DNA from: Porphyra umbilicalis
Taxonomy: Eukaryota; Rhodophyta; Bangiophyceae; Bangiales; Bangiaceae
Assembly: GCA_002049455.2 (NCBI GenBank)
Contig: KV918829.1
Coordinates: 124,001-188,000, forward strand
Direction: 5' to 3'
DNA length: 64,000 nucleotides
Shown here: positions 16,393-20,090 of the stretch, piece by piece
Layout of the letters: the number at the start of each line of letters is the position of its first letter
Numbering within the stretch: position 1 is the stretch's first letter
Notes under the pieces: model-generated
What the model saw: the letters and a program-made list of their open reading frames with translations, nothing else
Databases searched by the model: none
What the model was told of the DNA's origin: nothing
Made by a program: the position numbers and the translations under genes

Positions 16393-19300
16393 TCACGACC
16401 GCCCCGGCACGTTGGCGTGCCCGTACGGACAGTGGCGGCAGGCGTTGCCACAACACGGGCGGCGCCCCAAAAACGCGGCCGTCCACACCTTGTAGCCGCT
16501 CGGCGGGTCGACGTACTGCCAGCACCCGCGGCGCACCGCCGCCGCGTGCAGCGCCGCCGCCGTGGCGCCGTCGCGGGCGGTGCCGGGGGGGAGGTCCTCC
16601 AAATCCCGCACCGCCGCCGCGTCGGGCGTGCCGCGCGCGGCGGCGGCCAGGTCGGCGAGGCGCAGGGGCGGCGGCGGGCGGTGCCGCCGCACCCGCGTCG
16701 CGCCGCCGCCCACCGCCGCGTCCGAGGTGGCACTCGAGTCGCTCGCCCCGTCGCTGTCGCTCGCGTCCGTGTCCCCGTCCCCGTCGGTCGCGTCCGTGTC
16801 GCCCTCACCGCCCGACGGCGCCTCTGGGGCGTCGCTCCGCACCGCCGCGTACAGGTCGGCCGGCACGGCGGCGGCCGCCGCGTCACCGCCCGGTTCGGTC
16901 GACGCGGCCGACGCAAAGCCCGGCACGTCCTCAAAGCGGAAGGCGCGGGGCACCCCCCCCCCCCCCCCCCGCCTCCTCATCCACCACCACCCGCAGCACG
17001 CGCGTGCGGCGCGCCGCCGCCGCCGCGTCGTCGCCGAGCGGCACCCCCGGGTGCAGCAGCGCCGCCGTCACCTCCACCGCGTCGACGAGGCGGGGCCCCG
17101 GGCGCGACACCGCCGCCGCGTCAATGACATACGCGCGCGGCGGGCGTGCGGCGAGAGCGGGCGTCGCCCACAGGGCCGGCACGTCGGCGAGCGCGACGCG
17201 CACGTCGATCGACGCGGCGGCGGCGGAGCGCCCACACGCCGCAAAGAGGGCCACGTCGGGGGCGGTGGCGGGGAGGTCCCCCCACGCCAGCCGCCGCGGC
17301 GCGTCGCCGGCCACCCCGCCGGCCGCGTCGACGCCGCCCGCGCGGGAGCGCACGTCGGGCAGCCACTGGCCCGAGGCGACCAGCGGGAAGACGCTCTCCG
17401 CGCCGAGCACGCGGGGGGGGGGCGCCCGGCGACCGCCGCCGCCACGCACGCGAGGCGCGCCTCGAGGCCCGCAACGACGGTGGCGGCGGCCGCGGCTTCG
17501 TGCACCGCGTCGCCGACGGTGCGGATGGCGGCCAGCATCCCGTCCACGGTCGTGGGGCTGACGGTCAAGACCGCCGGCGGTGGCACGACGCTGTCCGCAC
17601 CGCCGTCGGCGTCGCCGCCGTTGGCGTCGCCACCCACCGCCTCGCCCACCGCCGCCGCCGTCGCGTCACACACGTCACACGCGTCTTGCGTTAGCACGAG
17701 CGCCGGCCGCAAGCCGCGCAGCCGCCGCCCGTCGACGGTGTGGAAGCGCGGGGGCGCCCCCCCCCCGCCGCCGCCGCCGCCGCCCGCACCGCCGCAACGT
17801 CCGCGTCAACGTCGGCCGACGGGCGGCCCGCCGACGGCACGCGCGCGGCGGTCAAGCGCGGGGCCGCCGCCACCCACCGCGGCCAATCGCAGTGGGCGCT
17901 GATGCCCGCCAGGCGCGACCGGTGGCGCCGCACGACCGCCGCCGCGTGGCCGCCGTCGACGGGCGCGGCGGCGGCGGCGCCCGCGGCGGCAGCCACCTCG
18001 GCGACCGCCGCCGCGTCGAGCACCGCCGCGGCCACCTCGGTCGCCGCCGGCGCCAAGGAAACAATGCGCGACGCGCGGCGGGCGGCGGCGACAAAGGCGG
18101 CCGCCCAGACCGGCTCGGCGCCCAAGTGCACGTACGTGGCCACGGTGGCACCGGCGGTCAAGGCGCCCTCGGGCGCCGGCGGCTCGCCGACGGCGGCGGC
18201 CGCACCCGACCCCGCCGCCACCGCCGGCGGCGGCGCGTCGCGGGACCCCCCCCCCCCCGCTCCCGCGCCACGGCCAAGGCGGGGACGGGGACGCCCGCGA
18301 GCCCCGCCGGCCGCCCCGTCGCCCCGTCGACGCGCATCGCCGGGTCGGTGCCGCCCGGCAGCGTCGCCTCAGAGTGGTGGTGCACGTGCCCGCGAAAGGC
18401 CGTGCCCGCCGGCAGCCGCAGCAGCGCCGCCGTGGCGGGCGGCAGCGACGCGGTCACGTAGCCGAGCGTCAGGCGGGGCGTCATGGCCGTGTCGACGGGC
18501 ACCACGCCGGCCATGCGGGCGGGCGGTGGGGGCGGCGCGTCCGTCGCGCCGCGGGCGTCGGGTGCGCCGTCGGCGCTGTCGCCGCGCGTCGGGGCGGGCT
18601 CCCAGCCGCGTGTGCCGTCGACGGGGGGGTGGAGCGCGCCGCCCAGGTACATGAGGCCCCCACACTCGGCCCACACGAGGCCGCCGGCGCGGCAAAAGGC
18701 GGCCACGTCGGCGCGCATGCCCGCCGCGGCCGCCAGCGCGGGCGCGTGTCGTTCCGGGTAACCGCCGCCAAGGTAGAGGGCGTCGAGGGCGGGCGGCAGC
18801 GCCCCGTCGGCAAGCGGCGAAAAGGGCACGAGCGACGCGCCCGCGTCGGCCAACAGCCGCAACGTGTCGGCATAGTAGAAACAAAAGGCGTCGTCGGCCG
18901 CCACGCCAATGCGCACGGGCCGGCGGCGGGGGGCGGGGGGCGGCGCCAACGGCGGGGCGGGGAGCGCGCGGCTGGCGCCGCCGCCGCCGCCGTCAGGGGC
19001 GGCCACCACCGCCGCGGGCACCGCCGCCCGCGCCGCCGCCAGCAGCGCGTCGACTTCCACGTGCGCGTCGACAAAGTCGCCGAGCGCGTCGAGGCGGGCG
19101 GCCCAGGCGGGCGGGGGCGCCGACGCGCCGGCGCCCCCCCCCCCCCCCCACACGGGCGGCGGGAGCAGGCCGAGCCCCCCCTCGGCCAACGCCACCCGCG
19201 CGTCGGGCGGGAGCACCCCCCACACGGGCACCCCCCCGTCGGCGGCGGCGCGGCGGCGAGGCCGTCGACCAACCAGCGGCCGTGGTCCCCGCCGCGCCCC

Positions 19301-20090
19301 CCCCCCACGCGGTTAAACACGACGCCCGCGACCGCGACCGCGGCGTCAAACGTGGCGTGCCCGTGCGCCGCCGCCGCCGCGGAGCGGGCGGTGCACCACG
19401 CGTCGACGGTGAGGACGACGGGGGCGGCGAGCCACTTGGCCACCTGCGCGGTGCTGCCCGCGTCGGTCGCGCCGCCGACGCCGTCGTGGAGGCCCATCAC
19501 GCCTTCGACAATCGCAACGTCGGCGGGGGGGGGGGCGGCGGCGCCCGCAAAGGCGCCGCCGCCGCCGCCGCTGCTGCCGCCGCCGCCGCTGCCGCCGCCG
19601 CTGCTGCCGGCAATGGACCGCTCATAGGCGGCGACGCACCGCGCCCGCCCGCCCGCCATCCACCCGTCCAAGTTGACGGCCGGCCGCCCCGCGGCGGCGC
19701 CGAGGACGGCCGCGTCGAGGTAGTCGGGGCCGACCTTGAAGGGCGCCACGGCCAAGGCGCGGCGGCGGAGGGCGACGGCCAAGCCGGCGGCGAGCGTCGT
19801 CTTGCCAGCCCCGCTCGCCGCGCCGGCAATGACCACCGTCGGCACCCGGGGATGCGGGCGCCGGGGGGGGGGGCGGCCGTAGACCCCATCCCACAGTCAC
19901 GGGGGCGTACGGCGGCGCGGGGCAGGGACCGCCGGCGGCTCGGCGGGGCGGTGGAGGCGCCGACCAGCGCACCGGGGGGGAGCGGCGCCGCCCGGTGTAG
20001 CAGCGGCGGCGGCGGCGGCGCGCCCGTCAGCCGCCGACACCACGCCAGCGTTCGCGCGGGGCGGCCGACGGCGCCGCTGCGGGGCGGCAT
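16393..20090 (-). CDS. Cobyrinate a,c-diamide synthase (CobB/CbiA) – BtuF-like – DUF5522 fusion protein
   Basis: ATG 20090 opens an Arg-rich, acid-free transit-like leader. The CobB/CbiA amidase follows: P-loop [11 protein letters not shown] near 19815, NRVGG, then a glutamine amidotransferase domain with [10 protein letters not shown] (nucleophile Cys, near 18660) and [10 protein letters not shown]. Its last strand [16 protein letters not shown] continues in the same frame into [12 protein letters not shown], the start of a BtuF-like cobalamin-binding domain ([54 protein letters not shown]). The C-terminus is DUF5522 ([13 protein letters not shown]). The family amidates corrin side chains with Gln and ATP; BtuF binds B12. 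The frame changes at 19863-19873, about 19240, 18246-18256, 17757-17766, 17413-17422 and 16953-16970; five of the six are G/C homopolymers, so I infer one intact gene with length errors. Its role in this host is unknown. Confidence 0.75.

Follow-up and report, generated by a model that had tools for sequence, protein, structure and literature searches.

A CobB-type amidase fused to a BtuF-like domain and DUF5522 in the red alga Porphyra umbilicalis and in other photosynthetic eukaryotes

We analyzed a gene on the minus strand of a 64,000-nucleotide stretch of the red alga Porphyra umbilicalis (positions 124,001 to 188,000 of KV918829.1 in GCA_002049455.2), hereafter the window, which has a guanine-cytosine (GC) content of 70.6% and is part of contig C69 in an 83.8 Mb assembly of 665 contigs. 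The gene spans 16393..19889, with its likely start codon, ATG, at 19889-19887 and its stop codon at 16395-16393, and is divergent from a gene for an NT5C-like protein (23.8 bits, slightly under that model's cut-off). Pfam matches and alignments indicate that the stretch running from 20090 down to 16393 encodes, in this order, a CobB/CbiA ATPase, a GATase_3 glutaminase, a BtuF-like domain and DUF5522. The CbiA/CobB ATP-binding synthetase domain, with its P-loop, lies at 19184..19836 and is recognized by Pfam PF01656 (54.3 bits), by NCBIfam NF002204 and by its residues. The GATase_3 domain follows at 18093..18913 (PF07685, 87.1 bits, best stretch 18913-18626, with its end set by alignment), and the alignment locates in it an AECGG cysteine, an HHHS histidine and a closing strand at 18140-18093. 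The BtuF-like domain, a class III solute-binding fold with CDxP, CxxC and CG cysteines, extends over 16979..18068 as judged from alignments, homologues and the fold of the relative P0003, and DUF5522 occupies 16411..16548 (PF17653, 51.7 bits in the joined protein and 55.1 in the single frame, against a cut-off of 25).

The junction of the two larger parts (18033..18140) is contained in one frame: the last CobB strand (18140-18093) and the first BtuF-like strand (18068-18033) both lie in the single open frame 18257-17757 of the minus strand. Hence, the observation made in the sequence-only reading of this DNA, namely that CobB passes without a stop into a BtuF-like domain with DUF5522 behind it, is confirmed. 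Its assignment of the two folds held more unevenly. GATase_3, CbiA and DUF5522 all score above their Pfam cut-offs in the joined protein, so that the CobB assignment stands; the BtuF-like fold is supported through P0003, whereas Peripla_BP_2 (PF01497) reaches 24.8 bits in the joined window protein, under its gathering score of 27.5. The same model scores 46.6, above the cut-off, in the Marchantia relative P0017, and gives no match at E <= 1e-5 in P0003. Thus, the fusion of CobB, BtuF-like domain and DUF5522 is real, and the identity of its parts is firm.

In the assembly, the region 20090-16393 is not one open frame, being divided into seven segments (A-G) by six frame changes, each of which, give or take a few codons, can be assigned to a G/C run of 7-18 bases. 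The first is an 11-base run at 19863..19873, upstream of the first conserved block; the second a 7-base run at 19231..19237, where the computed cut lies at least 6 bases upstream and both frames are open through the run; the third a 13-base run at 18246..18258, within a Gly-rich insert not seen in the other alignment rows; and the fourth, fifth and sixth are runs of 10, 10 and 18 bases at 17757..17766, 17413..17422 and 16953..16970, all on the minus strand. Twelve G/C runs of at least seven bases occur within the gene, accounting for 3.6% of its bases; the whole window holds 172. The coincidence of breaks with homopolymers is strong but inexact, since the position of each break is defined to within some codons. 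The breaks most likely represent sequencing errors, because a JGI protein, P0034 (589 residues; a cluster of 4 sequences on a 2,089-base contig), which is identical to the window copy in 536 of the 600 columns (89%) that align between the close of the CobB domain and the C-terminus, continues in one uninterrupted frame through the junction and through breaks 4, 5 and 6. Introns as the source of the frame changes are not favored, since a G/C run is available for all six and P0034 shows no intron-sized gap at the three that it spans. A misassembled fusion or a dead gene, which the six breaks might at first bring to mind, is very improbable: besides the homopolymer positions and the intact P0034, the conserved blocks with their residues persist on either side of the breaks in the alignment (break 1 precedes the first block), and many other lineages have the same fusion. 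The CobT gene of this genome is likewise divided over two frames, which is compatible with the same homopolymer fault or with an intron, and gene models elsewhere in the assembly, many of them, may be cut in this manner.

A transit-like leader, from which work in the plastid had been suggested, found no support. The stretch 20090-19890 (segment A, 75 codons) has GC fractions of 0.81/0.81/0.89 by codon position, and does not look coding beside segments B-G, where the values are 0.78-0.88/0.62-0.73/0.92-0.95, with position 2 lowest and position 3 highest. Moreover, all 23 eukaryotic homologues examined begin no more than 24 residues ahead of the first CbiA strand, and a start at the ATG at 19889 would be similar in this respect. 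We therefore regard this ATG as the likelier true start, given the composition of the upstream stretch and the closeness of the homologues' starts to the P-loop. Plastid targeting is accordingly not supported, and the protein is predicted to be cytosolic as a default, since no export signal is visible.

The fusion is a family found in many photosynthetic eukaryotes, among them liverworts, streptophyte algae, part of the chlorophytes, Triparma and dinoflagellates, and is not peculiar to this alga. A search with the joined protein recovered 30 proteins among 7,969 scored, 13 of which combine DUF5522 with CobB-type domains. Twelve of these 13 (e.g., P0001, P0005 and P0012) add further Pfam accessions, which we read as Kelch-type, apparently between the binding domain and DUF5522; the sole homologue without them, P0003, has the same layout as the window protein. 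The named sources of the DUF5522-type fusion are Prorocentrum, Polarella and Triparma, and those of the fusion without DUF5522 are two species of Marchantia, Monoraphidium and Raphidocelis, together with proteins whose locus-tag style names presumably stand for Spirogloea, Mesotaenium and Mesostigma. Among the best 120 of 7,769 matches in a search with the CobB profile, further fused proteins come from Riccia (two), Myrmecia and what we take to be Chlorokybus, and Trebouxia, Closterium and Symbiodinium are represented by the CobB part alone. In Auxenochlorella the second domain aligns only as remnants. Seven of the 30 rows (P0022, P0023, P0025-P0029) are bacterial-type CobBs fused to other domains.

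In a careful tree of the CobB domain (65 rows, with the long row P0022 left out), 25 algal, liverwort and metagenome sequences and the chytrid Polychytrium form one clade, with a bootstrap of 100 and a Shimodaira-Hasegawa-like approximate likelihood-ratio test (SH-aLRT) value of 99. Within it, the window protein belongs to a group of 12 rows (100/100) whose other members come from dinoflagellates, Triparma and metagenomes. Ten named cyanobacterial CobBs and four unnamed rows make up a separate clade (100/100), and a cyanobacterial (plastid) origin of the CobB domain is thus not supported. In the binding-domain tree (88 rows, quick method), 19 eukaryotic rows, including the long row P0020, likewise form one clade (SH-aLRT 97), whose nearest bacteria are Chloroflexota (Dehalococcoidia, SAR202). 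A red-lineage group is present in both domain trees, with the greens less resolved. The simplest reading of these trees would be one old fusion that partly spread with red-derived plastids. The Polychytrium protein (P0223) is an unfused CobB-type protein, annotated in a chytrid, that groups inside the eukaryotic clade; a clade of the 25 photosynthetic and metagenome sequences on their own, as seen in a quick tree in which the fungal protein belonged to no group, was given up, as the careful tree keeps them apart in 6% of bootstraps.

The first half of the window protein is a CobB by the curated NCBI model NF002204, which the joined region matches with 335.5 bits against a cut-off of 254. It shares with CobB/CbiA both domains, the P-loop, the GPD(Y/F)(L/I)D motif, the ECGG cysteine and the HxS histidine, and differs from these enzymes in its fusion to a binding domain and DUF5522 and in its occurrence in a eukaryote in which neither CbiC nor a second CobB/CobQ-type gene was found. 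The subfamily model TIGR00379 is narrowly missed (249.2 against 261.4 bits) by the window copy, which carries inserts and is broken in frame, and is passed by the relatives P0003 (338), P0001 (357.5) and P0017 (415.1). The model of CobQ/CbiP, NF001989, is far from being reached (32.5 against 273), and sequence searches of the PDB with P0003 and with the CobB profile each found no relative. A passage in PMC7242693 describes CobB-type enzymes as using ATP and glutamine in the amidation of side chains a and c, and one in PMC5871853 gives the Cys/His as the conserved pair of CobB/CobQ. The window copy retains the P-loop, GPDxxD, VEGxMGLxDG and the glutaminase Cys and His, from which amidation of the a and c side chains of a corrin can be predicted for the algal protein.

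The retention of these residues bears on an alternative that we consider unlikely, though it is the strongest rival of our main reading: that the protein is a corrinoid carrier or sensor, with the CobB part serving mainly as a scaffold or ATP switch and the amidation vestigial in some lineages. In its favor, both Riccia proteins (P0154, P0155) lack the glutaminase cysteine (GEGGG instead), and Raphidocelis (P0030) lacks the P-loop lysine, the VEG-MGL-DG motif, the cysteine and the histidine; these are probably dead or repurposed enzymes that nevertheless persist as fused proteins. The Kelch-type domains of nearly all DUF5522 homologues (the 12 of 13 noted above) would also suit such a role. 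However, the window copy keeps every catalytic motif and the glutaminase cysteine is kept in 22 of 25 eukaryotic rows. The mean column identity, too, is 51% in the CobB part (seven rows) as against 46% in the BtuF-like part (nine rows), a weak comparison as the rows differ.

The second half is best compared with unsecreted bacterial proteins. Its bacterial kin are 33-40% identical to P0003 over more than 90% of their length, and all nine selected bacterial and archaeal kin begin no more than 6 residues before the first strand, i.e., they have no signal peptide. The window domain, which is internal and follows CobB, likewise shows none of the periplasmic export of BtuF, and gives no match at E <= 0.001 to the BtuF model NF002894 (cut-off 234), a model that two bacterial kin tested also leave unreached (28.6 and 26.7). 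Hence, an importer-type BtuF as the second domain is not supported. Its closest counterparts are unsecreted, BtuF-like 'cobalamin-binding proteins', nearest in Chloroflexota, with which the algal domain shares the whole-domain identity, the cysteine motifs and the absence of a signal peptide. Those proteins are stand-alone, however, and none of the bacterial rows examined is fused to CobB. CBA1, the algal B12 uptake protein, is similarly eukaryotic, BtuF-like by structure and tied to B12 use as a passage in PMC10828217 describes it; compared by description only, it differs in its uptake role and signal/ER (endoplasmic reticulum) targeting from the window protein, which has no visible signal and carries an amidase.

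The CDxP, CxxC and CG/CS cysteines are common to the four bacterial and archaeal rows compared, the window, P0034, and the dinoflagellate and Triparma rows, and occur also in Spirogloea, Chlorokybus, Myrmecia and P0037, with an altered CDxP in Monoraphidium. The CxxC pair is gone in Marchantia and Riccia (four sequences, with the first cysteine kept) and in Auxenochlorella, Raphidocelis, Mesostigma and the greens P0020 and P0024, and half of it is gone in the red-lineage row P0040. Decay of the binding half in lineages that lack the known B12 enzymes would agree with a corrinoid ligand, as a pattern rather than as a test. We infer such a ligand for the second domain, also with regard to the kin annotated as cobalamin-binding. 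Weighing against it, haem-binding proteins are equally good fold matches, the fold scores of haem and siderophore binders being the higher ones, and many kin carry JGI 'iron complex' names. The VIA-align matches are mostly solute-binding and GatD chains; the absence of other folds among them is little informative.

These haem-binding matches lead to another alternative, which we rate as unlikely as well: that the second domain holds a non-corrin tetrapyrrole, for instance (metallo)sirohydrochlorin or a derivative of haem, and that this is what the enzyme amidates. A passage in PMC7242693 presents CfbB of the F430 pathway as very similar to CobB and as amidating the same a and c side chains, of Ni-sirohydrochlorin. 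The genome also has a TP-methylase locus, which we read as of the SUMT kind, and the protein is kept in Marchantia although methionine synthase METH is unreported in liverworts. The sequence-only reading had listed a different tetrapyrrole among its options, and the profiles disfavor it: the CobB region misses the CfbB model NF033195 widely (264.9 against 560) while passing that of CobB by the margin given above. Siroheme synthesis is plastidial, and the plastid leader that would fit it is unsupported. The binding-domain kin, moreover, are in part annotated as cobalamin-binding, and cob genes adjoin some of them.

Indeed, a CobB/CobQ-type gene occurs in the flanks of 3 of 80 bacterial loci of the binding-domain family (the best 80 of at least 584), a context that is thin, many of the contigs being short. 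We scanned 20 open reading frames in seven selected loci. In the acidobacterial locus L043 the order of genes is CobS, a nitroreductase that we read as BluB-like, CobB, a TonB receptor, the binding protein and a second amidase, which we take for CobQ since it scores low against the CobB profile. The neighbors in L042 include an adenosyltransferase, another Peripla_BP_2 gene and a gene that is CobQ-like; those in L061 include an aminotransferase, CobS and, again, a CobQ-like gene; and in L058 both ABC (ATP-binding cassette) and TonB genes and a Diphthami_syn_2 gene are found near the binding protein. No B12- or transport-type neighbors were seen among the reading frames scanned in L070, L086 and L040.

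Eukaryotes are held to take B12 ready-made. In six-frame searches of the Porphyra assembly, we recovered matches to METE, MCM, CobS, CobT and pieces of an adenosyltransferase, and a METH match on a 23 kb contig of putative algal origin. CbiC had no match in this genome, as against matches in 7 of 14 control genomes, and the single GATase_3 match is the fused gene itself, so no second CobB/CobQ-type amidase, and hence no CobQ, was found. Within the reach of these searches, de novo corrin synthesis and the completion of cobyrinic acid are excluded, and the combination of a corrin amidase, a corrinoid-type binding domain and DUF5522 in a eukaryote that does not make the ring, as originally proposed, stands. 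The CobS and CobT matches are divergent and about 1 kb apart (C121:180459-183303; L020, L021), and we read the pair as a small cobamide-remodelling cluster in a eukaryote. The genome paper of Pyropia yezoensis, in the passage concerned, names an adenosyltransferase and CobS as its only B12 biosynthesis genes.

This gene set argues on both sides of a further possibility, which we regard as improbable, that early corrin intermediates such as cobyrinic acid are salvaged from bacteria and that the enzyme performs a true biosynthetic CobB step. Such a step would agree with the curated CobB model and with the downstream CobS and CobT of the host. On the other hand, with one GATase_3 gene and no CobQ found, the b, d, e and g side chains could not be amidated, and CbiB is among the genes that a passage of Helliwell 2016 (PMC4850488) reports as not found in the algal genomes analyzed there.

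Hence, we tentatively propose, with a little less than even confidence, that the protein is a cytosolic two-headed enzyme of corrinoid handling, descended from an early photosynthetic eukaryote, which re-amidates side chains. The BtuF-like domain would grip the corrinoid in its cleft; the CobB domain would use ATP to activate side chains a and c where these are free acetates; and the Cys/His glutaminase would free ammonia from glutamine for their amidation. Bacterial corrinoids that are damaged or only partly amidated could, once imported, be repaired in this way, beside the lower-ligand remodelling by the CobT and CobS of the same genome. Re-amidation is preferred over synthesis because neither upstream ring synthesis nor a CobQ-type enzyme was found; repair as the purpose, the cytosol as the site and a corrinoid as the substrate would each follow from the considerations above. 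The proposal has in common with the remodelling described in a passage of Helliwell 2016 (PMC4850488), which ties algal CobT, CobS and CobC to it and reports neither CbiZ nor CbiB, both the presence of CobT and CobS and the idea of editing imported corrinoids. It differs in that their remodelling changes the lower ligand, whereas CobB chemistry acts on the side chains of the ring; such editing would perhaps supply the ring-side chemistry missing from algal cobamide remodelling.

A passage of Dorrell 2024 (PMC11439496) reports CblB and CblJ, and not METH, from liverworts and leaves open whether adenosylcobalamin metabolism survives in them. That Marchantia has retained the CobB half speaks for a function still being served there. 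In a broader and more speculative form, which we think unlikely to hold in full, photosynthetic eukaryotes would have retained, from early in their history, a corrinoid side-chain editing of their own, by which an imported corrinoid is re-amidated or reworked in some other way, marking in liverworts an undiscovered corrinoid-dependent process. In any case, the fused gene offers a single target for asking whether land plants still use a corrinoid, the question left open in that study. A conserved eukaryotic a,c-diamide synthase joined to a binder would mean that side-chain chemistry of a corrinoid, or a relative of one, is under selection in cells unable to make the ring, and the fusion may bear on how algae process cyanobacterial or damaged corrinoids. 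The family suggests an as yet undescribed way in which B12-like molecules are handled or repaired by plants and algae.

Neither the conserved fusion nor its reach seems to have been described. This fusion appears in none of the matches listed in the open-licence literature, and among the papers examined only a passage of PMC4057078 mentions a eukaryotic CobB-like protein, from a haptophyte. Dorrell 2024 has no occurrence of cobyrinic, CobB, CbiA or BtuF, the main text of Helliwell 2016 none of CobB, CbiA or BtuF, and the CBA1 paper none of cobyrinic or CobB. No mention of DUF5522 was found in the open-licence literature. With its CC..C..C motif, this domain probably binds metal. A second DUF5522 protein in the genome (C58:232781-232915, L015) is fused to a diphthamide-synthase-like ATPase (Diphthami_syn_2, 38.4 bits), and DUF5522 thus sits on two unlike ATP-dependent amide-forming enzymes. 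A third copy (C15:351644-351799, L016) lies in a long frame that has many CxxC-type cysteines toward its C-terminal end and no other Pfam domain at E <= 0.001.

Elsewhere, the window encodes, on the plus strand, a protein kinase (12551-16105, 233 bits), a dynamin-like protein (39506-42466) and a class I/II aminotransferase (47272-49344). On the minus strand are an ankyrin-BTB protein (22542-24065), a coatomer COPA/COPB2-like subunit with WD40, COPA/B propeller and TPR regions (34172-37045), a trypsin-type protease (49259-51604) and a DDE_1 transposase-like protein (59501-60931), whose DDE match (113 of 177 positions) ends with the frame. The plastid contig C665 (185 kb, about 29-34% GC in the stretches examined) carries phycobilisome genes, which point to a red alga. 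Two of them have as PDB matches the beta chains of R-/B-phycoerythrin and C-/R-phycocyanin; the top row for phycoerythrin bears the label of a fluorescent protein.

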